Source: a virus. Taken from it: a stretch of 25,512 nt of DNA. Below, piece by piece: positions 352-24,387 of this stretch; position 1 is the first letter of the stretch, and the number at the start of each line of letters is the position of its first letter. The notes below the pieces were generated by a model, which made no database searches, was not told the DNA's origin, and saw only the letters and a program-made list of their open reading frames with translations. A program made the translations under genes and the position numbers. The stretch covers positions 1 to 25,512 of the IMG/VR virus record IMGVR_UViG_3300044591_000145, one strand, 5' to 3'.

Positions 352-532
352 GAAGGGGCAGGGGTTCTTCATCCCTGCCCTAGACCTCGACGCCACGCGT
401 GAGGCGGGGCTACTGGCTGCAGTCAAGGCCCGCGTTCTAGACGCTCAAGCCTTGTACTGCCTCCACAACGGTATGCAGGGCGTCCTGTTCTACCGCAAGC
501 CTACTTCTGATACCGGTCGTAGAGCGCGATGA
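326..532 (+). CDS. Small conserved phage hypothetical protein (68 aa)
   Basis: This short frame overlaps the end of the preceding gene and stops at the TGA at 530-532. I prefer the GTG at 326, because an AGGG lies six bases upstream and the protein then begins with KLPWTTLEKGQGFFIP. A TTG two codons earlier, at 320, is the alternative. The pattern of an aromatic/proline GFFIP strand, a central alanine-rich helix and a terminal GVLFYRK strand gives a compact alpha/beta look. Small phage proteins of this kind recur, but I know no function. Its last 32 bases overlap, on the opposite strand, the end of the 2159-aa gene. That is unusual packing, but the codon pattern of the protein looks genuine. 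Confidence 0.65.
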   Translation: MKLPWTTLEKGQGFFIPALDLDATREAGLLAAVKARVLDAQALYCLHNGMQGVLFYRKPTSDTGRRAR

Positions 533-3500
533 ACGGGGCAGCGATCCGCTGCGCTGCCGAGTCGATACGGGCCAGGATTTCGTCCTTGCGCTCCGTGGAC
601 ATGTTGGGCGCAGCCCGCACCTGACGCCGCAGCTTGGCCAGTTCACCCAGTTGTTTCTGCAGCGCGCCGCTAGTCTCGGCAAAGGCCAGACGGTCTGCGT
701 ACTCCTGAGCGAACAGCTTGGCGTCTGCCATGCGCCCGTCCTCGATGAGCTTGTTGAGCGAGCCCTTGGCCTGATCAATCTCCTTCATCCGCTCGTAGGC
801 GCCGTCGAGTGTGGCGCGGCCCTCCACAGGCTGGAACAGCCCGCCGATGAACGGCATCTTGCTCGGCTTGGTCGTGGGCTCCTGCACGTTGTCCGCCTTG
901 GACGCAAGCAGGGGGTTGGCCAGTTGCACCAGGGCGATGCCCAGACCGCCCGTGTAGCCACGGATCAGGTAGTCCACCTTGATGGGCGTGAGGCCCAGGT
1001 CGCCCGTGGCGCCGCCGATGAGCTTGGCGATCTCGGTCGTCGTCTCACGGTAACGCTCGGTCGGCAGCATGCGCTGCTCACGCGCAGACTCAATGTCTCC
1101 GGCAAAGAACGACTTGCCCAGTACCACCTCGGTCAGCGGCTTGATGGCCTGCGGCAGCGCAAACGGATTGCTCTGCATGAGCAACTTGCCCATGCCCTTG
1201 GTCAGATCGTCGCCCTTGTCGTCGGACGCCATCTTGTTGAAGATGGCTTCGGGCAGCGCCTTGAACAGGTAGCCCAACTCAAACGGGATCGGCACGCGCA
1301 CGGGCTCGGATACGCCTGGGACGTACACAAACCAGTTGGCCAAACGCTCTTCAGGCTTGGCCCGCTTGTACGCCTCATCGTCCTGCATGACGGCGGCGTA
1401 GCCCATCGTGCTACCTGCCATGAGCAAGCCACGCATGACGAGCTTCTTGCGAATCTCCAACTGCTCGTTGTACGGCATGTCGCCCTTGAAGGCGCGGTAC
1501 AGAACGTCCAAACCCTGAATCTGGGCGTTGAAGAAGGGGATCATCACGGACAGCCACCGCATACTGGGCGACAGGCCGCGACGGCTGAAGTTCATCGACT
1601 CCAGGGTACGCAGCAGCGCCTGCTGCTCGCTCATGCCCTTGGCAATCGAGTCGTTGTAAACGACTGCGCGGGTGGCCGCATCGCCTTGCATGGCGAACGC
1701 ATCGGCCTTGGCCATCGTCTTGTCCCATAACGACTTGCCTGCGGTGAGGTCGCGCATGAACATTTCCATGTCGCGCTGATCGCCCGTGAACACGTTGCTG
1801 CTGATGGCACCTGCCGACATGAGTTTGGCTTCGGCTTCGCTGCGTCCGGCCACCATCTTGCCCAGTTCGCGCATGGCATCCAGTACCGGCACGCCGCTCG
1901 TAGCGTTGGTCAGCCAGACGTTGAGCGGATCACGGATGATCTGGCGCACCGCATACACCGGCGCGCGCGTCACGAACTTGCGCAGCACATCTGCCGGGTA
2001 GCCCATCATCTCCACGAGCATCGGCATGGCGGTCTTGATACCCTCCATGCCCTTGACGATCAACTCCGCCGGAATGCCAAACTGGTCTTGATCAATGACC
2101 GCAAAGTGGTCTTCGCCCTTGACCTTGAAGCGCACGGTGCTGCTGCCTGCAGGTCCAGCGCCGCGCCCCATCTTGCTCACGATGCCCATCTTGTTGAGCG
2201 TGAAAGCGGAGTCCTTCATCATCTGGTTGCGCAAACCCATGCGCGTGATGATGTAGGCGTTCTGCACGGCGCTCGTGAAGGCGGGCATGATCTGGTCAGA
2301 ACCACCCTTGAGTTGCTGCAACTCCGGCTGATCCTTCACGTTGCCGATGCGGATGGGGCGCTCCTTGTCCACATACAGGTTGAGCACGTCGCCATCGACG
2401 CGGTAGTACGGGATGTAGGGCGTGCTCTTGAGTTCCGCAGCCTTGGCAGCGGTCATCTCGCCGGTCTGCACCAAGAAGTCGATCAGGCCGTTGTTGAACT
2501 CCTGATAAATCTTGTTGGCCTTCTCGAACGCAGCCTTCATCTTGGGATCGGCGTTCAAGCGCGCCATCACCTCGGCGTGCTCTTTCTTGGCAAGCGCGGG
2601 GTTCTTCAGGTTGAGCTTCTCCCAACCCTTGACCTCTGCCCGCAGCCCCGCCACGTAGGCGGTGAACATGGCTTCGGCTTCTGTGGAGTTCTTGATCCCC
2701 GACTCGTTGAGCGCCTCTGCAGCGCCCATCAGCGTAGCCCCAGGCTTGCTGCGGTAGATGTACTCCATCCCGCCCGCCACCTTGTTGGCGATCCGCTGCA
2801 CCGGCCCGTTGGTCAAGAACTGAGCGGCGTACTGGCTGATCTGCTGACCGAAGCGCAGAGAGAACTCAGCGTTCTGGGCCTCAAGCGCAGTGATCTGGCC
2901 CTTGGCCAAGCCACGCTTAAACGCCTCAGAAAGTGCCGCGTCTTTGTCAACATACTGAACGCGACCCGACAGGCCCATGATGTTGCCAAACAGCACGTCG
3001 CGCAGCCGAGGCTTCTCAGCCACGAAAGACTTGGCGATGTTGACATCTTCCCGGTATTGACGGAATGCGATCTGTCCGTCTGCTGAGCGGTAGGCTCCGA
3101 TGCGCTTGTCGGCAAACGCCTTACGCGATTCGCGCAGCATGTAGAAGATGTCGGAGGTGCTGAGCTTGGCAGTCTCCATCATGCCCATGCGGCGCAGACT
3201 GGAGCGAACCATGCCTACGAGTTCCTTGATCCACCGACCGGCCTTCTCTCGGAAAGACGCGGTGACACGCGCCTCTTCGGTATGGGCGATGATCTCGCGC
3301 AGGGCTTGCAGGCGTTGAATATCTTCGCCACGCCCGATAGCACTCATGGCGTCCATAGCCGACTGAGCTTCGGCGCGCAGGTCAGCACCGCCTACTTCTT
3401 CAGCCAACTTGAGCACATCGGTCTTGTTGGCGTACGCCTGCAAGCGGTCGATGCCGATGAGGGTGTCAATGCCGTAGTGGCCAACCAACTCGTGGGCAAT

Positions 3501-6500
3501 CGTAGCCTCAAGGTCTTTGAGGTTGGCGTGGTTCTCGCCAATCACCAGCACCGTGCCGTCGCTAAACACAGCGCCTTGAACGTCGGCAGGATCGGCCTTC
3601 TCTTTGGCCATCTGGTTGAGCAAGCGTACGGGCACATCGCGCACCGTGGGCGCGTAGATGAACTTGACGTTTGAAGGAAGCTCCTCCTTCACTTTCACTA
3701 TCAACTTCTCTGCTTCTGCCGCATCAACTTGTCCACCCTCGGCTTCACGTTTGCGATACGCAGCCCCAACATCGTCATCAAACTCGCCGCGCTCACGGCG
3801 CTCAGCTTCCTCAAAGTCGCGCTTAATCTGCTGCAGGCGTTCAAACTTTTCAGCCGTAGCCTTGCGGCTTTCAGGCGAACCAGTGCGCTCTTCGCTCGGA
3901 GCCTGGGAGACTTTGCGTGTAACTTGAGGCGTGCGCTGGGTCGGTACTGTCTGCTTGCTGAACTTGGTTTCCTTCAGCGCCTCTTGCATGACGCTGATCT
4001 GTTCCTTCAGTGCAGCCTTGTACTCGGGCGTGGCTTTACCAAGCGCCGTCGCGCGCTCGGTCGTTGCCAGCTTGGCTTTCTCTTGGAACTCAATAACCGC
4101 CGGATCGTTGGCCCCGGACTTTTCCTTCAGTGCTTCAAAGCGGCGCTTGATGTCACTGGCAAACTTCTTGTACTCCGCTTCGTTGCGGCCCAGGTCAATT
4201 GCCAGTTTTCGCATCTCTTCAGATGCTTCGGCTTCCTTACGGACATCACCACGCTTGATGCGCTCAGCAGTCTTAACTGCACGAGACACCGGCTGCTGCA
4301 TCCGAGCGCGGCGATCACTTTCTGCGCGGCGCGCCGCACGCAAATCGGCGGGTGTGGCGGCTTCTTCACGGGTGTACAGGCTCTTGTAGAGTTCGTCGAT
4401 CTGGTTCTTGATCGGAGCGACTTTAGTGTCGTTCAACATGTTGAACCGACCGGCAATGGTCTGCAGGCGCTTGGTTGCCGCACCACGCTCTTGGCCAGTC
4501 ATCGGACGCTGCTCAGGCGCAGCCTCGCCTTTGCCCAGAGTGGCATTCAACTGTGCCACTTTGTCCTTCATGGACGGCTTGTATGCAATGCCTGTCTCCA
4601 GCGCATTGGAGATCATGGCGTGCTCAGCGGCGAGGTCTTCCAGTTCTTGCAGGATTGAACGCTTGGCGTTCTTCTGCGGCTGCTCAACCCGGTTGCGCAG
4701 CGTCATGATCTGGTTCATCACGCTGTCGTACTGCTCCGGCGTGGCCGTACGAGTGACCTTCGCACCTTTAAGCCCCAGACGCTCCTCAAGTGCCCTGTTC
4801 AGGCGCAATTTTTCGTCTGCTTCCTTCTCCTTAGTCGCAGCCGCTTCTCCACGCTTGCGTGCTTCAGTGGCAACCAATGCCCGCTGAACGGCAACCGGGT
4901 CGTTGTTCTGCATCCCAGTGCGCAGCATGTTGATGCTGCTGAAGATGTCTTCAGTGCGGTCACGCGTAGGAACTACGTCTTGCAGTTCCTGTTGAAGCTG
5001 CGCAAGACGGCGCGGCGATGCGGGCTCAGTCTTTTTCTCAAGCCCGATGCCCATCTCATCAACTTGCGCGGCTTTGCGCAACGCTTCGGCACGCTTGTCG
5101 GCCTCAGACGGCTCAGCAGGCGCGGCTTCGATAACGGGCTTAGTCTCAATAGCCGCAGCTTCTTCTGGCTTGGTCGCCAACGTCTCGATGGGCTTGCCTG
5201 CCAGAGACTTAAATTTAAGCGGGGTCTGGCCTTCCGGCTGAGCGGACATCTCACCAAACAACTCGCGGGTCTGGCCGCGCTGCTCCATGCCTACCTGCTT
5301 CTCCTGCAGCGCCTGCATGCGCTTGGCAGTATCGGCGGCAAGCGCCTCACGTTCCTTCTTGGCGGCATCAAGCTGCGTGCCGAGGTCCGTGGCTTTGTCG
5401 AAATCGCTGGCTTGCGCAGCCTTGGTGAAGTCGTCTTGCAGCTTGGTGATCCGGCTATCGATAGCCGTCATCTTGGCCGCAGCCTGCTGCTGGAACTCCG
5501 TCTCGGGGATGGCCACACCCCCACGCTCTTCGATCAACGCGGCGCGCGCATCAATCCGACGCTGGAGTTGCTGACGCTGTTCGTTTAGCGAACGGAAGTC
5601 GTCCGTGCGGCCTTCGGTGGCGGCAGTCTGCAACTGGGGCAGCAAGTCCTGAAGCTGCTTATTGAGCGCATCCTGCTCGACCATCAGGCGCTGTACGTCA
5701 GGGATGGGTTCGGGAGCCGGAGCCGGAGCCGGTGCAGGCGCGGGAGCTTCCGCAGGCTGCTCAGCCTTCTTCAATTCGGCAATGGCGTCCTTGCGCTTCT
5801 CGTACTCACGCCGCAATGGCATGAAGTCCTGCATGAAAGCGGTCAGGTCTTCTTTGGCCTGGGCCTTGGCTGCGCGCTCTTCTTCCGTAGAGTCCTTGGT
5901 CAGCCGCACATTCTTGGCGGCTTCCAACTCCTGCTTGCGGGCCTGGGCCGCTGCGTAGTCAGCGTCAAGTTTGCGCAGCGCCTCGGGCTGCGTAGCGGCA
6001 GCTTCGGCTTCCTGCTCTTGCTTGAGTTGCTCAGCCTTCGCTTGATCGGACAGGAACTTCTCCGCCTTGCGGCGCTCACTCCCGCGCTCAACCGCACGAC
6101 CGGCAGGCGAAATAACACCACCCAGAACAGCGCCGCCGATCAGGCTCTCGATGTACTCTGCACGTGCTGCCGGGTCAGTTACTTCAAGCCCTGCCTGCAG
6201 CCGCTCCAGATACTGTTGACCGACTTCGGTCAAGCCTTCACGCCCAGCTACCTTGCCCGTCGTAACGGCGTAGTCGGCCACCGCTTGGCGCATGCCCTGC
6301 TGCGTGATGGCTTTGGCTTCGGCTTCTGTCAGGTCTTTGCCAACCGACTTGAAAAGGTTACGAATGAGCGGGATGCCGCGCAAAGAGAACACGTCCAGTG
6401 CGGCTTGCGGCACCGCAGCAATAGCTGCTTTGCCCAAATCAGTCCGCTCCAGACCACCAGTTTCCCCACGCTTCTCCGCTTCCTCAAGCTGCCGTGCGAG

Positions 6501-6980
6501 GTTAGAACCCGTGAACTGCGCAACCGAGGCAGCACCGGCGCCAAGCGCGCCAACAACGGGTGCTGCTGCGCCAAGGGGAATAGCCGCAGCGCCTGCGGCA
6601 ATCGGAGCCGCCATGTACGGGATCGAACTGCCCAGCAGTTCAAGCGTTTTCTGAACCGGGGCTTCAGTCCAACCTTCTTCGGTCGGTTTGAAAATCTGCT
6701 TAGCGCGCTCTTCGCGCTCGGCGCGGTACTTCTCCGCTGCCTTAACGTCCATCAGGCCGAGCTTGCCTGCAGTGAGCGCAGCCTCGCCTTTCAGCGACTC
6801 AACACCGGCTCGAAGTGCGGGGGTGAAACCCCCTCGGGGGCCTTCTTCCGGGGCTACTGCCGCTGTGCGGCCAAAAGCCTCTGGGTATTTAGCGTACGCC
6901 TCACGTATGGCCTCCTGATATGTCTGGCCTTCTTTGGCCTCGTAGTAGGCACCATTGGGCAATTGGACGTAATTCGCCAT
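501..6980 (-). CDS. Giant polyvalent-type virion protein (2159 aa) with zincin-like motif
   Basis: This is the last and largest gene of the late run, with an ATG at 6980 and a TAG at 501-503. Regions seen, in order: a short N-terminal motif (YVQLPNGAYYEAKEGQTYQE); an Ala/Gly-rich hydrophobic stretch, residues 113-157, and another near 277-293; a long charged coiled-coil region, about 300-1100, broken by an Ala-Pro linker at 412-423; a metallopeptidase-like segment with HELVGH at 1163-1168 and a candidate third ligand, E1229, in REIIAH; and a helical C-terminal half from about 1330 to 2080. The C-terminal half carries PFFNAQIQGLDVLYRAF, FELGYLFKALPEA and YLIRGYTGGLG blocks of the kind found in phage large polyvalent proteins (LPD38-like). 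Polyvalent proteins are thought to be injected with DNA; for this one, injection and peptidase activity are inferences. The Shine-Dalgarno is weak. No frameshift was seen. Confidence 0.9.
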   Translation of the reverse strand: MANYVQLPNGAYYEAKEGQTYQEAIREAYAKYPEAFGRTAAVAPEEGPRGGFTPALRAGVESLKGEAALTAGKLGLMDVKAAEKYRAEREERAKQIFKPTEEGWTEAPVQKTLELLGSSIPYMAAPIAAGAAAIPLGAAAPVVGALGAGAASVAQFTGSNLARQLEEAEKRGETGGLERTDLGKAAIAAVPQAALDVFSLRGIPLIRNLFKSVGKDLTEAEAKAITQQGMRQAVADYAVTTGKVAGREGLTEVGQQYLERLQAGLEVTDPAARAEYIESLIGGAVLGGVISPAGRAVERGSERRKAEKFLSDQAKAEQLKQEQEAEAAATQPEALRKLDADYAAAQARKQELEAAKNVRLTKDSTEEERAAKAQAKEDLTAFMQDFMPLRREYEKRKDAIAELKKAEQPAEAPAPAPAPAPAPEPIPDVQRLMVEQDALNKQLQDLLPQLQTAATEGRTDDFRSLNEQRQQLQRRIDARAALIEERGGVAIPETEFQQQAAAKMTAIDSRITKLQDDFTKAAQASDFDKATDLGTQLDAAKKEREALAADTAKRMQALQEKQVGMEQRGQTRELFGEMSAQPEGQTPLKFKSLAGKPIETLATKPEEAAAIETKPVIEAAPAEPSEADKRAEALRKAAQVDEMGIGLEKKTEPASPRRLAQLQQELQDVVPTRDRTEDIFSSINMLRTGMQNNDPVAVQRALVATEARKRGEAAATKEKEADEKLRLNRALEERLGLKGAKVTRTATPEQYDSVMNQIMTLRNRVEQPQKNAKRSILQELEDLAAEHAMISNALETGIAYKPSMKDKVAQLNATLGKGEAAPEQRPMTGQERGAATKRLQTIAGRFNMLNDTKVAPIKNQIDELYKSLYTREEAATPADLRAARRAESDRRARMQQPVSRAVKTAERIKRGDVRKEAEASEEMRKLAIDLGRNEAEYKKFASDIKRRFEALKEKSGANDPAVIEFQEKAKLATTERATALGKATPEYKAALKEQISVMQEALKETKFSKQTVPTQRTPQVTRKVSQAPSEERTGSPESRKATAEKFERLQQIKRDFEEAERRERGEFDDDVGAAYRKREAEGGQVDAAEAEKLIVKVKEELPSNVKFIYAPTVRDVPVRLLNQMAKEKADPADVQGAVFSDGTVLVIGENHANLKDLEATIAHELVGHYGIDTLIGIDRLQAYANKTDVLKLAEEVGGADLRAEAQSAMDAMSAIGRGEDIQRLQALREIIAHTEEARVTASFREKAGRWIKELVGMVRSSLRRMGMMETAKLSTSDIFYMLRESRKAFADKRIGAYRSADGQIAFRQYREDVNIAKSFVAEKPRLRDVLFGNIMGLSGRVQYVDKDAALSEAFKRGLAKGQITALEAQNAEFSLRFGQQISQYAAQFLTNGPVQRIANKVAGGMEYIYRSKPGATLMGAAEALNESGIKNSTEAEAMFTAYVAGLRAEVKGWEKLNLKNPALAKKEHAEVMARLNADPKMKAAFEKANKIYQEFNNGLIDFLVQTGEMTAAKAAELKSTPYIPYYRVDGDVLNLYVDKERPIRIGNVKDQPELQQLKGGSDQIMPAFTSAVQNAYIITRMGLRNQMMKDSAFTLNKMGIVSKMGRGAGPAGSSTVRFKVKGEDHFAVIDQDQFGIPAELIVKGMEGIKTAMPMLVEMMGYPADVLRKFVTRAPVYAVRQIIRDPLNVWLTNATSGVPVLDAMRELGKMVAGRSEAEAKLMSAGAISSNVFTGDQRDMEMFMRDLTAGKSLWDKTMAKADAFAMQGDAATRAVVYNDSIAKGMSEQQALLRTLESMNFSRRGLSPSMRWLSVMIPFFNAQIQGLDVLYRAFKGDMPYNEQLEIRKKLVMRGLLMAGSTMGYAAVMQDDEAYKRAKPEERLANWFVYVPGVSEPVRVPIPFELGYLFKALPEAIFNKMASDDKGDDLTKGMGKLLMQSNPFALPQAIKPLTEVVLGKSFFAGDIESAREQRMLPTERYRETTTEIAKLIGGATGDLGLTPIKVDYLIRGYTGGLGIALVQLANPLLASKADNVQEPTTKPSKMPFIGGLFQPVEGRATLDGAYERMKEIDQAKGSLNKLIEDGRMADAKLFAQEYADRLAFAETSGALQKQLGELAKLRRQVRAAPNMSTERKDEILARIDSAAQRIAAPFIALYDRYQK
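5712..5747 (-). repeat. Hexanucleotide-like repeat coding an Ala-Pro linker
   Basis: GGAGCC-type units repeat in near-perfect tandem and encode alternating Ala-Pro, about residues 412-423 of the 2159-aa protein. Such linkers are stiff and extended, and here it separates two coiled-coil segments. Length variation by slippage would be expected between relatives. Confidence 0.75.
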
Positions 6981-8850: not shown

Positions 8851-10230
8851 TCAACGACCCATGTTGTAGATTGCCAAATCAGCCAGACCGGCGGGCTTAT
8901 CTCGATACTCGGCGTCTTCGACTTCGCCGCCGTCCTTCATACCGAACAGTTTGCTTGCGCCAATCGCAGCGGTGCCCAGACCCGCCAGTTGCGACGTCAT
9001 AGACGGCGCCTGCTGATAAACAGCCGCGCCAGTCTGCGACAGGGGTGCGCCGCGCAAGATGTCGGACATGAAGCCCAACTGCTTGTACGGGTAGTTCTGG
9101 TAGTTCAGGAAGTCTTGGTACTGCTGATTCAGGATGTTCTGCGCCTGCTGCTGTTGCATGCCGCCATACTGGGCCTGCAACTGGTTGATCGCCATGTTCT
9201 GACCGAACTGGTTCTGACCCAACTGACCCAGTTGACCCGCGCTCTGCAGTGCGGTCTGCAAGCCCTGTAGCCCAAGACCCGCACCAAACTGACGCGACTG
9301 CTCGCCAAGCTGCGCCGCCGCTTGGTTGTACTGAGCGCCCAGACCGGCCTGCTGCATCAGGTTGCCATAGCCAAACTGACGCGACTGCTCAGCCATCTGC
9401 TGCGCCTGCATCCGGGCTTGCTGCTCGGCCAACCGCGCCTGGAGGTCTTGCTGCGCGCCAAACTGCTGAGTACCCAGAGCAGCCTGCAGGTTCTGGCCAC
9501 CCATCGTGATGCCTGCCTGCTGATTGGCCAGTTGAGCTTGCAGCCGCGCCGCTTGCTCAGCGTTGAACTGCTGTTGAGCCTGCTGGTAAGCCGCCTGCAA
9601 CCCAGTGGCTTGGATGTCGCCCTTCTGCATGGCAAGGTTGCGTGCAGCTTCGGCGTTCTCGATGGCTTGGCGCGCACCACCAAACGCACCGGCACGGGCG
9701 TACTTCTGACCGCGAGCAGTAGCGGCGATGTCCGCTTGGCGCTGAGCTTCGCGCTGCTGGATGTCCACCACGTTCTGCATGTACGGAGACATGTACTGAG
9801 ACGCAGTGCCTTGGCCAGTAAGAGAGTCCGTGTACACACGCTCCGCAGGCCCCATCTGGTAGGTCGTCAGAGCGCGAGTGCTAACACCGGGAGCCGTAAA
9901 CCGTGTGGGCTGATATGAGCTAACCGGCTGGTAGAAGTTGGCAAACTGCGACGGCTTGTACTGGTCGTACGCCAACGCACGCAAGCCTGCGGTGCCGGCC
10001 ATTGCAGACGCATCGCGCAACTGAGGCGCTGCCTCCATCGCTTGGGCGCCCGTGAACGCCTGTTGCTGCAGCGGGGAGAACTGCGCAAAACGCTCCCCCT
10101 GGTACTGCATGTACGGGTCTTCAAACATCGCCTCCGCACGGCCAAGCAGCCGCTCGGCATAAGGCGCGACGACCGGCGCGAAGCCAGTCTGGTATTCAGT
10201 AACCTGGGTAGGTACAGGGGTGGTTGCCAT
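8851..10230 (-). CDS. Glutamine-rich internal virion-like protein (459 aa)
   Basis: ATG at 10230, with AAGGA six bases upstream that includes the stop codon of the previous gene. The N-terminal 170 residues are mixed (YQTGFAPVVAPYAERLLGRA at the start). Residues about 170-400 are Gln/Ala/Gly-rich, with repeated units such as EQSRQFGYGN and EQSRQFGAGL and many QQ pairs, which suggests a long helix or flexible rod. The C-terminus carries LAGLGTAAIGASKLFGMKDG and an acidic DGGEVEDAEYRDKPAG tail. Gln-rich proteins of this layout occur with podovirus internal virion or tail genes, and the location between two other large virion proteins agrees. No catalytic motif was recognised. A role in the ejection apparatus is plausible but unproven. 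Confidence 0.82.
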   Translation of the reverse strand: MATTPVPTQVTEYQTGFAPVVAPYAERLLGRAEAMFEDPYMQYQGERFAQFSPLQQQAFTGAQAMEAAPQLRDASAMAGTAGLRALAYDQYKPSQFANFYQPVSSYQPTRFTAPGVSTRALTTYQMGPAERVYTDSLTGQGTASQYMSPYMQNVVDIQQREAQRQADIAATARGQKYARAGAFGGARQAIENAEAARNLAMQKGDIQATGLQAAYQQAQQQFNAEQAARLQAQLANQQAGITMGGQNLQAALGTQQFGAQQDLQARLAEQQARMQAQQMAEQSRQFGYGNLMQQAGLGAQYNQAAAQLGEQSRQFGAGLGLQGLQTALQSAGQLGQLGQNQFGQNMAINQLQAQYGGMQQQQAQNILNQQYQDFLNYQNYPYKQLGFMSDILRGAPLSQTGAAVYQQAPSMTSQLAGLGTAAIGASKLFGMKDGGEVEDAEYRDKPAGLADLAIYNMGR

Positions 10231-18406: not shown

Positions 18407-18910
18407 TTAGGGCTGCTCAGGCCAGTTGACGGTCCAGGGGAACCCAGCTTGCGAGGTAATGTCGCGCAGGGCTTGGCGGTGGGTTGCCCACGCAGCCTTG
18501 TCCCCCGGGGCGTCAGCCACCTGCGTCCAGTCCGTGTCCTTGAGTTTTTGGTTGCGCTGCTCACGCACAGCCTTGGCTTGCTCGGCGTCCTTCTGAGCCT
18601 TGTAGGCGGCTTCCTGCTCGGCAGCAGTCTGGGCAGGCTCGGTATCCGTTGCAGGACGGTCAGTGAAGATCGGGCCAAGAACGTGCTTGGTGTACCACTT
18701 GCCATCCACCTGCTCCACGCCTTGACGCATGGAGAACTGATAAACAGTACCTCCGGTTGCCTGCGGGCCTTCGAAGACCACATCAGCGCCTAGCGCCTCT
18801 AGAACCTCATCCGTGGTTTGACCCCATGACGGGCCACCGTTGTCTTTGGCCCAACGCCGGAGTTCGTCCTCCAGCATCACTTGGCCCGTGGCCCTGATTC
18901 TGATTTCCAT
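18407..18910 (-). CDS. Tail-fibre assembly chaperone-like protein (167 aa)
   Basis: ATG at 18910 with AAGGAG five bases upstream, containing the stop of the 645-aa fibre. The C-terminal part, about 110-165 (REQRNQKLKDTDWTQVADAP, WATHRQALRDITSQAGFPW), matches the Phage_tail_APC family, a tail-fibre assembly chaperone group. The N-terminal 85 residues (MEIRIRATGQVMLEDELRRW, GLP-free) differ from the second copy at 21443-21802 and may bind a specific fibre. A charged Ala/Gln/Glu linker (86-115) joins the halves. It directly follows the 645-aa fibre, so that fibre is its likely client. Folding-chaperone activity is family knowledge; the pairing is inference. Confidence 0.85.
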   Translation of the reverse strand: MEIRIRATGQVMLEDELRRWAKDNGGPSWGQTTDEVLEALGADVVFEGPQATGGTVYQFSMRQGVEQVDGKWYTKHVLGPIFTDRPATDTEPAQTAAEQEAAYKAQKDAEQAKAVREQRNQKLKDTDWTQVADAPGDKAAWATHRQALRDITSQAGFPWTVNWPEQP

Positions 18911-18916
18911 GATTGC

Positions 18917-18926
18917 TCCTTATGCG
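18917..18926 (-). promoter_or_regulatory. Junction element CGCATAAGGA (stop plus ribosome-binding site), copy B
   Basis: The minus-strand sequence fuses the TAA stop of the 645-aa fibre with the AAGGAG ribosome-binding site of the following assembly-chaperone-like gene. It shares 13 bases with the border at 20862-20874 and ten with 10237-10246. Confidence 0.7.
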
Positions 18927-20857
18927 ATGGCGAGGAAGAGGTAAGTGTCTCCATTGACATTGATACCAGTTCCGGCATCATCATTCACGATGAATCCTGA
19001 ACTGTCAGTATCAACACTATCACGGGTGGTTACTTCAGCGGAAGTTGTATTCAAAGCAAGGTATGGATCATTCCCCGCCACAATTCCGCGTGCGCTGTCC
19101 CAAACCCACCAGTTTCCATTTCCGCTTGTCTTTTTGATTAACACAAATCTAGCGCCACCAGTAAATCCACAGTTGATCGTCTGGCTTGTGCCATTACCTG
19201 TATAAGAGCCTGTTTTGCTTACACCCGCAGCAGAAGCAAAAAGATAGGCAACGTATGTGCCACCACTGTCATTAACTCCTGTATCTGTTCCAACTGTAAA
19301 AACAGAAGACGTTGGAGTTGTACTATTCCATCTAGTAGTGCCTGTTAGTTTTGTTCCGTTGCTGTTAAGTAATATATATTCTGTGTTTGCTAACGTGGCA
19401 GAATAAACCGTCCAGTTTGAAGTGTTGTCCCTGTACTTCACAATCATCAACTCAGGCACAACACCTAAGTTATGACTCACCGTGCGGTTAGCACCCGTCC
19501 CCGTATAGCAAACCTCATCAAAGAAACCGGGGGCGCGGCGGAAGTTCCAGTAGATACCAGAACCGCTTCCTGATAGGTAACCGTCTTGGTTGTACCCCGT
19601 ATTACTCCACGCCAATGTTCTGAAATTCAAAGCCGTTGATTCAGCGGCAGTGTTTGTGGATGTTAAATAGTTTGCCACCTCTGTAGAGGTGCTGCTTACG
19701 CCGCGAAGTCGATCAGAGAACCCAAAGTTTGGGGTGAGGCCGGGGCGATATCCGGCTACTTGCAGATCAAGCGGAAAGTTCGTCGTTACCGTCGTGCCAG
19801 TTGTGGTGGCAGACAAATTCGGACTAAACACACTCGTCCCCGTCGTCGGAGTTTTCATCGGGCCGCGACGGATGGCGACGTAGATGTAGGTGCCAGCACC
19901 GTCTACCAATTGGCTATTGAATCCGGTGGATGTCACAGATGCAACAGAATCATTGCCTTCGGCGCTAGAAGAATTTGGTATTAGCCTTGGCCCGAACACA
20001 TCAGACGTAAAGCCCGTCATGTTGTTTATGATGTACCAACTACCGCCCGTTGAGTCGGCTCTTTTTACCATCAACCATTGAGGTTCGTATCCAAGGTTTA
20101 TTGCTGTTGCCGAGGTGTACGACCCACACGAAATCACATTGTCCGTACCCGTCAGGCCAAAGCCTCCTGCGTCGTGGGCGAACAGGTAGGCGACGTAGGT
20201 GGAGCCGGAAGCATTGACGTTGCCGTTTGTGCCAACGGTGAACTCGGTGGAAGTTGGCGCGGTGTCATTCCAGATCGCAGAGTCAGTCGCCTCGGCGTCT
20301 GTGAGGTTGAGTTTGAGGTTCTTGGTTGCTCCCAGACTCCTGTGATACACGCGCCAGAGGCCGTCAAAATCTAGGCGCTTGACAATAATGCAGCCGGGGA
20401 CGCTGCCAAGACTGTGGGCGATAGTTCTCGCAGAACCCGTCCCCGTATACGTCACCACATCAAAGAACTTCGGCTGCTTGCGGAATGTCCATGAGACGTA
20501 GTTTCCCGGCGATTCGTTAACACCAACCTCCGACCCCAACGAAAAGCCGTTTGAAAGAAAACTTGTAAGTGAATTTGAAATCGAACTTTGTGCTCCTGTG
20601 CCATTCGATGCAAGTCGATTCAATGCCCCACGGTTAGTATCAAAGATATAGTGACCATAACCCGCAGAACGACTCTTTATCCAAACCAACCCACCCTTTG
20701 TGGATAAATCGATCCCGTTGGTGATTGTGTTGGTAGAGTCATTGCCGGTGTAGAGCCATGTTTGGAACACGTCCTCGATGTAGTTGGCGGCAGTCTGTTG
20801 GGCGAACTCGCCAAACCCTTGGGCAGATGCGGCACCTCGTGTGGCTACCAACGGCAT
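18920..20857 (-). CDS. Tail fibre with tandem repeats (DUF7483-like, 645 aa)
   Basis: ATG at 20857 with AAGGAG five bases upstream. The protein is a row of about five or six related units of roughly 95 residues: about 34-128, 132-227, 240-330, 340-440 (most divergent), 446-541 and 549-645. Each has a TGTG/TGNG-type start, a conserved hydrophobic strand such as CIIVKR, LMVKR, MIVKY or FVLIKK, a WxVY or WYII strand, then FTVGT..VN.SG.TYVAYLFA or its counterpart. This resembles DUF7483-type phage fibre repeats. No signal peptide or catalytic motif was seen. The gene has visibly lower GC than its neighbours (AT-rich runs near 19360-19375), pointing to recent transfer. Likely role: a trimeric receptor-binding fibre or its shaft. 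Confidence 0.87.
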   Translation of the reverse strand: MPLVATRGAASAQGFGEFAQQTAANYIEDVFQTWLYTGNDSTNTITNGIDLSTKGGLVWIKSRSAGYGHYIFDTNRGALNRLASNGTGAQSSISNSLTSFLSNGFSLGSEVGVNESPGNYVSWTFRKQPKFFDVVTYTGTGSARTIAHSLGSVPGCIIVKRLDFDGLWRVYHRSLGATKNLKLNLTDAEATDSAIWNDTAPTSTEFTVGTNGNVNASGSTYVAYLFAHDAGGFGLTGTDNVISCGSYTSATAINLGYEPQWLMVKRADSTGGSWYIINNMTGFTSDVFGPRLIPNSSSAEGNDSVASVTSTGFNSQLVDGAGTYIYVAIRRGPMKTPTTGTSVFSPNLSATTTGTTVTTNFPLDLQVAGYRPGLTPNFGFSDRLRGVSSTSTEVANYLTSTNTAAESTALNFRTLAWSNTGYNQDGYLSGSGSGIYWNFRRAPGFFDEVCYTGTGANRTVSHNLGVVPELMIVKYRDNTSNWTVYSATLANTEYILLNSNGTKLTGTTRWNSTTPTSSVFTVGTDTGVNDSGGTYVAYLFASAAGVSKTGSYTGNGTSQTINCGFTGGARFVLIKKTSGNGNWWVWDSARGIVAGNDPYLALNTTSAEVTTRDSVDTDSSGFIVNDDAGTGINVNGDTYLFLAIA

Positions 20858-20863
20858 GGTCGC

Positions 20864-20873
20864 TCCTTATGCG
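20864..20873 (-). promoter_or_regulatory. Junction element CGCATAAGGA (stop plus ribosome-binding site), copy A
   Basis: On the minus strand the TAA of the 190-aa gene is embedded in the AAGGAG ribosome-binding site of the 645-aa fibre. Thirteen bases (20862-20874) are identical to the border after the same fibre at about 18915-18927. Confidence 0.7.
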
Positions 20874-21439
20874 AAACGGGTCTGAGCAGCGAAGACGCTG
20901 AACGTCGCGTTCGCGGTCTTGATAATGGTGTACGTGTACGCGTCCACGCCACTGGCGTTGCCCGCTGCGGGAGCCGTGCCACCTTGCCACCGGGTGGTCA
21001 CACCGCTCGTCGTGCCGTCCACCTGCACCGCGCTGTTGAAGTACGCGGTCGATCCTTGGGTGACCAAGAACGCAGCAGTAAGCGACTCGCCTGTGGCCAT
21101 CAGCGTGTTCAAGCTCGTGCCGCTTGACCCACGGAAGTTGACCGTCCAGTTTGCAGAGGCGTTGGAGGTGTAGAACAACACCACCTGGGTGGTGACGTCG
21201 TAGTTGATCGTGCCCGTGGCGGCGGTAGTGGTGGCCGTCGCAGTCTCCAACACATCGGCAATCTTCAGACCCGCCGTGCTGGACGTGCCCACCACCGTCA
21301 TCTTGTTGGCGATGGAGACGTTGCCCGATGCAGCGGTTAGCGCCGTGGTACCCGCAGACTGGAGCGCCAGTTCGCCAGAAGCATCAGCAGTGACGATTGC
21401 ACCGCCAACGACGGTGTCTGCATTGATGAAGGTGGTCAT
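20867..21439 (-). CDS. Small Thr/Ala-rich phage structural protein (190 aa)
   Basis: ATG at 21439, with GGAG six bases upstream; the previous stop TAA lies between the two. The protein begins TTFINADTVVGGAIVTADAS and is dominated by Thr, Ala, Ser and Val, with few charges and no Cys. Beta-strand patterns alternate, such as VVLFYTSNASANWTVNFRG. The end, AYTYTIIKTANATFSVFAAQTRF, reads like the closing strand of a jellyroll or beta-sandwich. Such proteins are common beside fibres in aquatic phages and may be tail-tip, fibre-base or capsid-decoration proteins. No enzymatic motif was seen. It lies between an assembly-chaperone-like gene and the 645-aa fibre, so a fibre role is most likely. Confidence 0.8.
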   Translation of the reverse strand: MTTFINADTVVGGAIVTADASGELALQSAGTTALTAASGNVSIANKMTVVGTSSTAGLKIADVLETATATTTAATGTINYDVTTQVVLFYTSNASANWTVNFRGSSGTSLNTLMATGESLTAAFLVTQGSTAYFNSAVQVDGTTSGVTTRWQGGTAPAAGNASGVDAYTYTIIKTANATFSVFAAQTRFA

Positions 21440-21442
21440 GGG

Positions 21443-21802
21443 TTACTCCGGCTTGGAAGGCCACTGGATGTTGTCGGGGAAGCCCGCTTGTTGGGGGACA
21501 TCGCGCAGAGCTTGACGGTAAGGCGCCCATTTGTCTTTGGTTGCCTGCGGGACATCGACGGCTTGAGTCCAGTCGGTTGCAGAAAGTCTAGCGTTGCGCT
21601 GCTCACGCATTTCGGCGGCTAGTTTTTCACGCGCCTGTTCGGGCGTCGGTGCGTTGGGGTTGGACCAAGACGTACCGTCAAACACGCAGCCTGCACTCAT
21701 GCTGTCAGGGGCGGCGACCCAACCTTGAGTAGCAGCGTATTCGGGTTCGGCAACGACGATATTCACCGCCACGCCATTTTCGAGAATTGCAAAATTAGGC
21801 AT
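21443..21802 (-). CDS. Tail-fibre assembly chaperone-like protein (119 aa)
   Basis: The start chosen is the ATG at 21802, because AAGAGG lies six bases upstream. A TTG at 21823 would add seven residues overlapping the previous gene. The N-terminal half (MPNFAILENGVAVNIVVAEP, then a GTSW motif) is a small beta unit often found at the start of such proteins. The C-terminal part (REQRNARLSATDWTQAVDVP, YRQALRDVPQQAGFPDNIQW) matches Phage_tail_APC. It shares this half, but not the N-terminal half, with the 167-aa protein at 18407-18910. It follows a glycine-rich adhesin, which it may help to fold. The two copies suggest that each fibre has its own helper; this is inference. Confidence 0.86.
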   Translation of the reverse strand: MPNFAILENGVAVNIVVAEPEYAATQGWVAAPDSMSAGCVFDGTSWSNPNAPTPEQAREKLAAEMREQRNARLSATDWTQAVDVPQATKDKWAPYRQALRDVPQQAGFPDNIQWPSKPE

Positions 21803-21812
21803 GATGAACCTC

Positions 21813-22646
21813 TTAGTACTCAATGACTACAACGCCCGGAGCGCCAAAACCATCGGTGTTGTTGTTTGAACCGCCGCCGCCACCGCCAGAGCCGTATGCG
21901 TAGCCTTGCACTCCACCGTTGTAGTTGCCCTGACTACTCCCGCCGCCGCCCCAATACGAAGCACCGCCTACGCCACCACTAGATGTCCCCGACTGCGCGC
22001 ATTTTGCTTGCCCCATACCGCCATAGATATTGATGTCTCCGTTAGTTCCGTTAGCCGGGGTACTAAAAGCACTTGCAACACCACCGCCCCCGGTTACAGT
22101 TACCGCCCCATAAGCGAATGAAGAGTTGCCGCCATTAGTAGAAGTTCCACCCGCACCGACAGTAACTGTGGCGCTGCCACCAGAAAGTGTGTAAATACGT
22201 ATCGCGGTTCCACCAGCGCCGCCGCCGAAGCCGCTTTGAGCACACGCACCACCACCAGTAACAGTAACCTTGCACTTCGTGATTCCGGCGGGCACAGACC
22301 AAGTACCAGAAGAAGTAAATACTGCAAGGTTTGAAAACCCACCAGCAGCCGCTGCAGCACTTGTCCAAGTCGTGCCGTTACTTGTCAGCACGTTACCGGT
22401 TGTACCCGGCGCCACAACCTGCACAGCAGACGTTCCGTTCCCAAGCAGGACGTTGTTGGCCGTCAGCGAAGAGGCGCCTGTACCGCCACCAGCAACGCCA
22501 ACTGCACCAAACGACGGGGCGCTCGATCCGTTACTGAGCAGCACCTGACCCGCAGTGCCTGCGGAGGTGGAGACGTAGTTGGTTCCGTCGCCATAGACGA
22601 CGCCACCGGCGGTGGGCGTGTTATTGCCTACGATGGTTACTGGCAT
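21813..22646 (-). CDS. Glycine-rich tail-fibre/adhesin protein (277 aa)
   Basis: ATG at 22646 with GGAG six bases upstream, inside the end of the previous gene. Residues 1-100 are fibre-like, with GGTG at 54-57, GQVLLSNGSS and GNVLTSNGTT units and short TAG motifs. Residues 107-277 form a glycine-rich domain (VFTSSGTWSVPAGITKCKVT, then GGG tracts), with a CAQSG motif occurring twice (C135 and C216), and end in GAPGVVVIEY. Glycine-rich distal domains can fold as polyglycine-II or beta-layer adhesins, as in T-even gp38. The family guess here rests on composition only. It is likely a receptor-binding component, paired with the assembly-like protein that follows it. Confidence 0.84.
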   Translation of the reverse strand: MPVTIVGNNTPTAGGVVYGDGTNYVSTSAGTAGQVLLSNGSSAPSFGAVGVAGGGTGASSLTANNVLLGNGTSAVQVVAPGTTGNVLTSNGTTWTSAAAAAGGFSNLAVFTSSGTWSVPAGITKCKVTVTGGGACAQSGFGGGAGGTAIRIYTLSGGSATVTVGAGGTSTNGGNSSFAYGAVTVTGGGGVASAFSTPANGTNGDINIYGGMGQAKCAQSGTSSGGVGGASYWGGGGSSQGNYNGGVQGYAYGSGGGGGGSNNNTDGFGAPGVVVIEY

Positions 22647-22649
22647 TAT

Positions 22650-23015
22650 TTACTCCATCAAAATAACTTCGACCCAAGAAGTCGTGGGCTCGTCCCACCG
22701 ATAGCGTTTGCCGTCGGTTGGGTATGGAATTGGTGCGTCCCACCGGCAGGTGACTTCGTCAAATACCCAGGATGGGAATGGCTTGGGTGGGATAAACGCA
22801 TCGCGCTGTTCATCATAAGTGAACCCCTCACTCGCGTAGTTCTTGCGAAATGTGGCGTTGTAGGAAGTCTGCACCCAGTTTCCACCAAACAGGGATTGAC
22901 AGAACGCAATACCTTTGAGTTCGGACTCGTCACCGTTTTCCATCAACTCGTTGTTGTGGACGACGATGACCCGCAGCACCACGTTGTTCGCATCGAGTTC
23001 AGCAAAGTGCGCCAT
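22650..23015 (-). CDS. Small conserved phage protein, MAHFA type (121 aa)
   Basis: ATG at 23015 with TGAGG six bases upstream. The protein starts MAHFAELDANNVVLRVIVVH and contains WVQTSYNATFRKNYASEGFT and YDEQRDAFIPPKPFPSWVFD, then PIPYPTDGKRYRWDE near the end. This string of aromatic blocks is a recognisable small phage protein seen in aquatic and cyanophages next to fibre genes. Its biochemical role is not known to me; a small virion or fibre-attachment protein is plausible. It sits between two glycine-rich fibre proteins. There is no signal peptide or membrane segment. Stop TAA at 22650-22652. Confidence 0.87.
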   Translation of the reverse strand: MAHFAELDANNVVLRVIVVHNNELMENGDESELKGIAFCQSLFGGNWVQTSYNATFRKNYASEGFTYDEQRDAFIPPKPFPSWVFDEVTCRWDAPIPYPTDGKRYRWDEPTTSWVEVILME

Positions 23016-23023
23016 GCGTTGCC

Positions 23024-23821
23024 TCAGAACCTAATTGACCCAGAGCCGGTAAATTTGTATGTCCAAAACCCACCGCCGCTAGAAGTTAGTGGTGATCCGG
23101 TAGTTGCGGCTGCGGCTTGAGTTGCGCGGATGATGACTGTACCGGAGCCGCCTGCGCCGCCGTTGCCTTCATCTGTGCCACCACCGCCGCCACCGCCGCC
23201 GCGATTTGCTGCTCCGGGCGAACCGTTCTGTTGGCTTCCGTCGCCGGGGTTTGCGCCGCCATTTCCGCCGCCATCTGCACCTGCGCCGGGGCCTCCGGCA
23301 TCATTACCACCACCGCCGCCACCGCCAGAGTAGGTCAATGAACTATACAAAGTGGAAGAGCCGCCTGAACCACCATTCGCTCCGCTCCCTGCGGAGCCAA
23401 AGCCGCCACCGCCACCACCGGGGCCGGGAGATGTTGCACCAGCATTGCCTTGGCTCGGGCTCGTTGATGGCGTGTTGCCAGCGCCACCAGCCGAACTATA
23501 AGCGCCACCACCACCGCCAGAACCGCCAGCACTACCGGCATTAAACCCGCCACCACCGCCGCCGCCACCGGCAGATGTAATGGTGCTAAAGACAGAAGAG
23601 CCTCCGTTTCCGCCACTACCGCCACCAGCGCCAACAGTTACTGTGTAGGTCTGATTGGTGAGGATTGAAAGACTTGTATTCGTTCTAAATCCTCCACCAC
23701 CGCCGCCACCACCTGCGCCATTTCCCCCGCTAGTAGTACCACCGCCGCCACCTCCGGCAACAACCAATACGTTGACGTTAATTGGCAGACCCCCCGCACC
23801 GCCTGCCGCAAACATTTGCAT
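23024..23821 (-). CDS. Glycine-rich tail-fibre/adhesin protein (265 aa)
   Basis: The start chosen is the ATG at 23821, eight bases after the previous stop. A GTG at 23857 would overlap that gene and has no visible ribosome-binding site. The protein opens MQMFAAGGAGGLPINVNVLV and then is dominated by glycine tracts (GGGGGG runs) separated by beta strands such as NQTYTVTVGAGGGSGG. It ends with TVIIRATQAAAATTGSPLTS and a tail, GFWTYKFTGSGSIRF, a C-terminal block common on such proteins. It may fold as stacked polyglycine-II layers, but no family assignment is certain. A distal adhesin role is inferred from its position in the fibre block. Confidence 0.84.
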   Translation of the reverse strand: MQMFAAGGAGGLPINVNVLVVAGGGGGGTTSGGNGAGGGGGGGGFRTNTSLSILTNQTYTVTVGAGGGSGGNGGSSVFSTITSAGGGGGGGGFNAGSAGGSGGGGGAYSSAGGAGNTPSTSPSQGNAGATSPGPGGGGGGFGSAGSGANGGSGGSSTLYSSLTYSGGGGGGGNDAGGPGAGADGGGNGGANPGDGSQQNGSPGAANRGGGGGGGGTDEGNGGAGGSGTVIIRATQAAAATTGSPLTSSGGGFWTYKFTGSGSIRF

Positions 23822-23829
23822 GATGCCTG

Positions 23830-24387
23830 TCACGACACGTTCCCCGTCACCACACAAGCCGTTGCGCTGTAAAACAAAATCGTTGCTACCCCACGGGTTG
23901 CAAGCGTCATTGAAGTTCTAACGGTGTTGGTCCCGGCAACATATGCAGTCGGTGCAGAGCAAGTAATCGTGATGTTGCCTGTCGTGTTGTTGTACAGGGT
24001 GATCGCGTCGCCTTCTGCAAAGACGGAAGTTGGAACGGTGATGCTGCCCCCAGAACCAATCTGAACATACTTGCCAACATCACCAGCCGCAAGCGTGTAA
24101 CTGCCGGTCTGAGTGCCAACTGCCGGGAGGTTGCGATACCCCACGGTCATGTTCTCGTTGGGGAAGGTGTAGGTCTTCGTGCTGCTTGCAGGGCCGCTTA
24201 CTGAGAAGAACGCATTTCCAGTTCCACCAGAACCCGCAGGCAACGGCTGAGCAAGCGTCACGACTTGATTGGTGCCGATGGTGACTGCGGTGGTCGTGCC
24301 GTTGGTCTGCAACACCAACTGGCCGGTGGTGTCACCGGACGTGACAAGTGCGGTACCGGATGAGGTTCCTGCGGAAATGGTGCTCAT
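23830..24387 (-). CDS. Phage tail-fibre-like protein (185 aa)
   Basis: ATG at 24387 with AAAGGA seven bases upstream. The N-terminal part (GTSSGTALVTSGDTTGQLVL, QTNGTTTAVTIGTNQVV) is a typical fibre entry, followed by GSGGTGNAFFSVSGPASSTK, with the GGTG hinge at 54-57. The C-terminal half from about 85 (TGSYTLAAGDVGKYVQIG, VPTSVFAEGDAITLYNNTTG) looks like a small beta domain. It is compact, with no coiled coil. This is a short fibre or fibre-tip component, with its own ribosome-binding site, in a cassette with the 331-aa and glycine-rich genes. Its receptor is unknown. Confidence 0.83.
   Translation of the reverse strand: MSTISAGTSSGTALVTSGDTTGQLVLQTNGTTTAVTIGTNQVVTLAQPLPAGSGGTGNAFFSVSGPASSTKTYTFPNENMTVGYRNLPAVGTQTGSYTLAAGDVGKYVQIGSGGSITVPTSVFAEGDAITLYNNTTGNITITCSAPTAYVAGTNTVRTSMTLATRGVATILFYSATACVVTGNVS

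Follow-up and report, generated by a model that had tools for sequence, protein, structure and literature searches.

The gene at positions 18,920 to 20,857 of a 25,512-nucleotide stretch of viral DNA (IMG/VR record IMGVR_UViG_3300044591_000145; the whole stretch is called the window below) had been described in a first-pass annotation as a fibre gene of five or six tandem units, poorer in GC than its neighbours and, judging by that composition, recently acquired. The locus raised the question of what was mobile here: the gene as a whole, or the units of which it was made.

Features of the fibre gene and its neighbours (window coordinates)
Feature	Position	Strand	Basis and remarks
Six-unit DUF7483 tail-fibre gene	18920..20857	-	645 aa, ATG start; Pfam PF24299 E 1.1e-96, PHROGs
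N-terminal anchor	20780..20857	-	residues 1-26; Mantel link with chaperone; pLDDT <50 at residues 1-18
Unit A1	20465..20779	-	residues 27-131; profile homology, AF2 model
Unit B1	20165..20464	-	residues 132-231; profile homology to B2 (52% identity); single-unit model pLDDT 94
Unit C1	19859..20164	-	residues 232-333; profile homology
Unit A2	19523..19858	-	residues 334-445; most variable unit, mean pairwise identity 0.23
Unit B2	19223..19522	-	residues 446-545; profile homology
Unit C2	18923..19222	-	residues 546-645; most conserved unit, mean identity 0.72
DNA island 1, A1/B1 joint	20438..20503	-	residues 119-140; synonymous codon identity 0.66-0.67, two 10-residue windows
DNA island 2, B1/C1 joint	20111..20200	-	residues 220-249; synonymous codon identity 0.59-0.67
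DNA island 3, C1/A2 joint	19823..19897	-	residues 321-345; synonymous codon identity 0.63-0.65
DNA island 4, A2/B2 joint	19493..19555	-	residues 435-455, strongest 441-450 (synonymous codon identity 0.70)
Tail fibre assembly chaperone (Phage_tail_APC)	18407..18910	-	next downstream; PF16778 E 3.8e-19
Upstream gene, phrog_5906	20867..21439	-	PHROGs; homologue <=1.2 kb upstream in 112/162 relatives

The protein matched the Pfam family DUF7483 with 324.3 bits against a cut-off of 27, over positions 4-327 of the 330 in the profile, and a second DUF7483 copy lay in tandem with the first (profile 128-327, 153.5 bits), which placed the protein in PF24299. Its PHROGs matches were phrog_24898 (tail fiber) and phrog_19943 (virion structural protein). 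No other family was found by Pfam to E 1, and neither a lectin nor a SPRY/LamG family matched; Gp38 was likewise absent from Pfam to E 1 and from PHROGs to E 0.1, where the same two families stood alone. When split at its joints, the protein consisted of six homologous units of about 100 aa in the order ABC-ABC. All 15 unit pairs were homologous in profile-profile comparisons built on 192 genes (probability 95.8-100%, E 8e-9 to 2e-43), and the control, one column-shuffled comparison per pair, stayed below 1% in 14 of the 15 pairs and gave 21% in one. Since the best-matching pairs were A1-A2, B1-B2 and C1-C2, the protein represented two tandem triplets, with one DUF7483 domain equal to three units. 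Thus, the proposed fibre of tandem units was borne out, with six units, by Pfam, PHROGs, the profile comparison and the structure model; the blocks by which it had been recognised (VKR/VKY, W strand and VG..VN.SG.TY) were those of units B1 and B2. The suggested self-dotplot, run as a self-BLASTP, returned the full-length match alone with no off-diagonal, although the repeats were evident in the profile comparison. BLAST drops alignments nested inside a full-length self match, and we attributed the null result to this because B1 and B2 were 52% identical.

An AF2 model of the whole fibre (pLDDT 90.2, pTM 0.87; 94.0 for B1 modelled alone) consisted of small, mostly-beta domains, and the six all-beta units were probably beta sandwiches. 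The underlying alignments held 68 sequences (the first 71 representatives without L022, L062 and L083) and 59 sequences (58 of the 190 listed B1 stretches plus the window's own). A Foldseek comparison of the whole model with the PDB gave two matches at E <=0.001, both with probability 0.25 and TM <=0.14, and the single unit gave none at that E value. The best VIA-align 2 scores were also weak (Z 5.6 for the whole model, 5.5 for the single unit). Weak matches at Z 5.4-5.6, over 69-80 residues with rmsd 2.9-4.0, included a pseudaminidase C-terminal domain and a galectin, and such matches neither established sugar binding for the modelled fold nor excluded any known family. The top BFVD match was named DUF7483 (TM 0.90), and most others listed nearby had no name.

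The window followed the order of a fibre gene and then a Tfa/Phage_tail_APC chaperone, and a chaperone homologue lay within 1.2 kb downstream in 175 of the 181 relatives with enough flank. A second chaperone (PF16778 E 6.8e-24) directly followed a glycine-rich fibre-like gene (21443-21823 and 21813-22646); therefore, the cluster held what looked like two fibre-chaperone pairs. Another glycine-rich protein was encoded at 23024-23857 (PF21722 E 3.7e-13, phrog_2295), in a gene with a GC content of 0.613 and a third-position GC of 0.464. Further away were a protein of 2159 aa (501-6980) carrying an LPD38 domain close to the C-terminus (E 5e-33) and a weak match to a DNA ejection protein (8851-10230, phrog_4287 E 2.7e-7); judging from these matches, both products were possibly ejected virion proteins. 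No reverse transcriptase was found by Pfam among the 19 large ORFs scanned in this 25.5-kb fragment. The complete genome of a relative, MW202710 (L083), carried genes annotated as ninb protein, recombination enhancement, exonuclease and single strand binding, which were possibly machinery for homologous exchange.

Relatives of the fibre gene were taken from the matches listed in five viral scans and one phage record, giving 202 distinct genes from 273 loci, nearly all on metagenome contigs. At least 600 stretches matched in each of four of the five member-query scans of one viral collection, and 22 in the fifth. DUF7483 relatives occurred in roseophages, pelagiphages and cyanophages. As weak host evidence, a prophage-host scan returned five MAG contigs; the label was Alphaproteobacteria for four of them and Euryarchaeota for the fifth. 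An alignment of 196 genes included the window gene and left out seven of the 202 (five short, two long). It had been proposed that repeat number varied between related phages and tuned the reach of the fibre. Among close relatives the number was near-fixed, as the 5-95% limits of length were 635-693 aa in the 202 genes, but it did differ at greater distance; the length range spoke for close relatives only because the search favoured full-length matches. Eight pelagiphage isolates, chosen from 26 Pelagibacter records, had proteins of 339-351 aa, equal to one triplet of three units, and a family member in EBPR siphovirus 2 had 387 aa. The member in roseophage CRP-603 (L285:3137-5845) had 902 aa, with its N-terminal part replaced by a different sequence that looked lectin-like by eye. 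The longest relative (L101:4001-6049) had at least 1001 aa, being open at the contig end, and was 38% identical to its own query. On contig L005 (6369-6683), a second gene of the same family (>600 aa) lay upstream of the first-matched one; therefore, some phages may carry two.

The joints between the units differed from the units themselves at the level of DNA. Synonymous codon identity, scored among pairs sharing the same amino acid in 192 genes, rose from a baseline of about 0.4 (0.28-0.52 per 10-residue window) to 0.59-0.70 in four islands of 63-90 nt each, located at four of the five joints. The fourfold-site match was 0.60 in the islands versus 0.368 at non-joint codons with an amino-acid identity of at least 0.7, and 0.647 versus 0.374 in the first 71 genes. 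When the island mask was shifted circularly, 10 of 644 shifts reached the observed value, none of them displaced by more than 6 residues from the real position; beyond 15 residues, the values peaked at 0.586, which we think reflected the spacing of the islands at about 100 residues. Islands 2 and 3 showed the rise although neither contained any of the six peptides with which the first scan was made. In the same 192 genes, synonymous identity was not raised at the B2/C2 joint or in the conserved unit C2. Among 3000 random pairs, an identical stretch of at least 20 nt was shared by 34-50% in the islands, by 0.2-2.7% in the cores of A1, B1, C1, A2 and B2, and by 7-9% in C2, the A1 start and the B2/C2 joint. 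Between the window gene and MW202710, DNA identity was 67-95% in the islands and 39-52% in the units by segment, reaching 98% at residues 119-138, 90% at 223-242 and 82% at 323-342. The island 4 region was 95% identical over 104 nt to the genes on L034 and L036. A two-piece match to MW202710 (20121-20508, 95.7% DNA identity) had been considered as an exchange of unit B1, but its pieces corresponded to islands 1 and 2, which enclosed a divergent B1. The third-position GC of the islands followed genome GC as that of the cores did; therefore, the island DNA was not one frozen sequence.

The units were inherited almost independently of each other. Among 19,110 pairs from the 196 genes, pairs with one unit at least 90% identical mostly had another unit below 65% (16/20 for A1, 27/31 for B1, 23/27 for C1, 15/19 for A2, 16/20 for B2 and 37/41 for C2), and only four pairs were alike throughout all units. 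The identity matrices of the units were nearly uncorrelated (Mantel r -0.14 to +0.07 over 15 unit pairs). As a positive control, the N-terminal anchor and the chaperone, on opposite sides of the gene, were correlated in 171 genes (r 0.585, reached by none of 200 permutations), whereas r between the six units and the chaperone was -0.06 to 0.07 in these genes; C1 and A2 showed weak correlation with it (7/200 and 6/200 permutations reached the value). Co-inheritance of C2 with the chaperone had been expected, and its r of 0.033 spoke against it. We mapped 162 exchange ends, defined as the ends of shared blocks and deduplicated by a heuristic. Islands contained 71 of them against 16% expected (p 6e-17), and 91 lay outside. 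Further peaks were found at residues 520-559 (B2/C2 joint, 23/162) and 20-59 (A1 start, 13/162); since ends also clustered at these two places, neither of which showed a synonymous rise, raised DNA identity was not required for exchange. There was no sign of exchange between different unit positions, where no DNA identity exceeded 78% (the best case, B1-B2).

The clearest cases came from individual alleles. Contigs L193 and L034 were 99.64% identical over 2787 bp upstream, up to about residue 61, and 99.8% identical over 3.6 kb downstream from about residue 446. Between these flanks, units A1, B1, C1 and A2 had DNA identities of 0.57, 0.51, 0.51 and 0.26 (gaps counted as differences), one 729-column stretch aligned at 68%, and the codons at islands 1, 2 and 3 were nearly all identical. 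A comparison of the L226/L227 and L198/L199 alleles gave 99-100% identity at residues 324-596 and 93% in B1 but 53% in A1 and 40% in C1. In addition, L062 had A1-B1 of L034 (99.4% identity over 673 nt), and its background resembled L084 (93% identity upstream and 97% downstream); as this was a single contig, L062 may be the product of a misjoin.

The joints were also compared in cultured phages. CRP-1, CRP-4 and CRP-13 were Roseobacter phages infecting the same strain, and their pooled synonymous identity was 0.718 in the islands versus 0.512 elsewhere; these three of the five phages compared were pooled after the segment identities had been seen. By pair, the island rise was clear for CRP-1/CRP-13 (p 6e-5) and CRP-4/CRP-13 (p 9e-4) and weak for CRP-1/CRP-4 (p 0.07). 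The raw values for CRP-9, islands versus elsewhere, were 0.617 versus 0.513 with CRP-1 and 0.586 versus 0.434 with CRP-13, and CRP-4/CRP-9 showed no island rise (0.441 versus 0.516). The three CRP-603 pairs had small rises or none (0.40-0.55 in islands versus 0.42-0.49 elsewhere). As far as about residue 58, CRP-9 and CRP-13 had 78% identity, and past the end of the gene 74%; in between, alignment was limited to matches of 40-195 nt, three of which sat at joints. The consulted part of PMC8528129 discussed module recombination in CRP-9 and CRP-13, and that of PMC6918029 dealt with other CRP phages whose tail fibre gene varied; the fibre units were not treated in either part. Between the window gene and CRP-4 and CRP-13, synonymous codon identity was slightly higher in the islands (0.48 versus 0.37-0.38), but fourfold identity was no higher there (0.41 and 0.32) than in the rest (0.43 and 0.39); therefore, island DNA seemed mostly pool-specific, and from these sequences we read the window phage and the CRP phages as belonging to separate pools. 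The three-unit genes of the eight pelagiphage isolates had no clear islands (baseline about 0.65). In one pelagiphage pair, HTVC103P and HTVC104P, units A and B differed and the alignments on both sides averaged 84-86%, which was suggestive only.

Several other explanations of these data had to be considered. With nearly all relatives being metagenome contigs, and with joints of 63-90 nt and long exact matches offering likely places for misjoins, the mosaics might be assembly artefacts in which different phages were joined at conserved joints and the true genes were not mosaic. We considered this quite improbable, since the L193/L196 allele recurred in two metagenomes, the L034/L036/L072 allele in three, and the L226/L227 and L198/L199 alleles in two each, with a near-identical block adjoining divergent units in each of these two pairs of alleles. 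Moreover, the isolates CRP-9 and CRP-13 kept their alignable flanks around units that aligned only in short matches, and misjoins alone would leave the higher synonymous identity of the joints unexplained. Rapid point mutation driven by selection from the host, with recombination playing a small part, would agree with the extreme divergence of the unit cores (mean identity 0.23 in A2). However, it was scarcely credible beside near-identical units next to units below 65% in the same pair and a replaced segment with 99.6-99.8% identity on both sides, and the mosaics refuted it unless they were artefacts.

A stronger competitor was that the codons of the joints were conserved for translation or RNA reasons, such as RNA structure or pausing between domains as they fold, and that exchange ended there for no other reason than that the units were folding domains. 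In the structure model, the islands corresponded to the last strand, the linker and the first strand of adjoining units, a place where folding during translation could be of importance; in addition, exchange took place at joints without raised synonymous identity. On the other hand, no clear RNA structure signal was found in the islands of 40 genes (z 0.24, 0.42, -0.64 and 0.17; controls -0.11 to 0.36), the B2/C2 joint had the same kind of linker and no rise, and the island fourfold identity of the window gene to CRP-4 and CRP-13 did not exceed that of the rest. Thus, we regarded this explanation as unlikely.

The remaining alternative, that the whole gene was a recent low-GC arrival, started from a correct observation: the GC content of the fibre gene was 0.502 (0.52 at third positions), whereas 17 of 18 other large ORFs had 0.56-0.63 and the remaining one, 22650-23015, had 0.525. 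Windows of 200 bases were also lower inside the gene (0.405-0.57) than in the flanks (0.545-0.635), albeit with slight overlap. GC was uneven within the gene as well, from 0.574 in B1 to 0.417 in B2, a gap that could favour the arrival of the gene but was also compatible with units of different origin. However, 164 of 192 family genes, the window's included, were below their own 2-kb flanks, with a mean deficit of 3.0 points, and gene GC followed flank GC (r 0.80). The window gene was 8.2 points under its flanks and ranked 12th of 192 by raw deficit, yet it lay just 0.75 SD below the GC trend. In the first 71 genes, third-position GC was low mainly in the unit cores (mean 0.40) and was 0.58 in the joints. 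Since low GC was a family trait that tracked the GC of each phage, it was no sign of recent arrival, and the recent acquisition suggested from composition was not supported. Together with the adjoining chaperone in nearly all relatives and the co-inheritance of the anchor with it, this made recent acquisition of the whole gene very improbable. The horizontal movement that we observed was of units, to which whole-gene composition is blind. No near-identical donor for the window gene's own units was found in the sampled relatives.

The explanation that we favoured, and held to be likely, was a host-recognition fibre whose domains were exchanged position by position through homologous joints; we infer both the receptor role and the recombination mechanism. 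In this model, the gene product would be a phage tail fibre of six all-beta units, with each position acting as an exchangeable cassette. When two phages co-infected a cell, homologous recombination at the conserved joint DNA, where the strands would pair, would replace one unit or a run of units. Such exchange would join the same unit positions and might alter receptor specificity. Neither the N-terminal anchor nor the downstream chaperone would move with the units, and the remainder of the genome would likewise stay. The fibre would presumably be trimeric and bind sugars or proteins of the host surface. The variable units, A2 above all, would be turned towards the host, and the conserved C2 may have a part in folding or in the assembly of trimers. 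A more far-reaching version was possible but somewhat doubtful: the joints could be dedicated recombination sites in a six-slot combinatorial adhesin, with selection preserving the likeness of joint DNA, and not of the protein alone, between phages of common host range. Domain alleles would then circulate position-wise in a pool larger than any phage lineage, and separate pools would be marked by different joint sequences.

Recombination between conserved motifs was reportedly found by Tetart, Desplats and Krisch in 1998 to swap the specificity of T-even adhesins. The T-even Gp38 is described, in the part of PMC12529663 consulted, as glycine-rich motifs alternating with hypervariable segments. 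The fibre resembled Gp38 in having conserved motifs at which variable segments were exchanged, a likeness of mechanism and not of family membership, but here the exchanged pieces were whole domains of about 100 aa, six in one gene. In coliphage tailspikes, conserved DNA motifs (44, 95 and 20 nt) on either side of the receptor-binding domain have been suggested as cross-genera recombination hot spots (PMC10408124, in part). As far as that part of the source goes, these motifs flanked one receptor-binding domain, whereas the DUF7483 gene had serial joints and units that were near-independent by position. The tail fibre of Alteromonas phages A5/V22, with its downstream chaperone, was common to distantly related phages (PMC10579305, in part), and there the whole fibre-chaperone module moved, whereas here the anchor and the chaperone stayed and the units moved. 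The portion of PMC6957217 consulted, on the T4 long tail fibre, contained nothing on unit exchange at joints. Because T-even adhesin motif recombination and the tailspike hot spots came before, this kind of system was known. In the literature searched, with subscription papers outside its scope, we found no paper on DUF7483 by name and no description of DUF7483 fibres that exchange whole domains by position at serial DNA islands; the fibre family and its layout of units and joints were apparently undescribed there. The Pfam name of DUF7483 denotes unknown function, and our analysis divided each domain into three exchangeable units and the joints into DNA islands.

DUF7483 fibres were common in viromes, and relatives occurred in cultured roseophages, pelagiphages and cyanophages. 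If exchange acts on each of their units independently, the evolution of host recognition consists in reshuffling domains drawn from a common pool, and similarity over the whole fibre would mislead host prediction. In that case, the unit that determines the host could be identified by comparing phages of known host unit by unit. Thus, unit exchange would let phages reshuffle the parts that they probably use to recognise bacteria.
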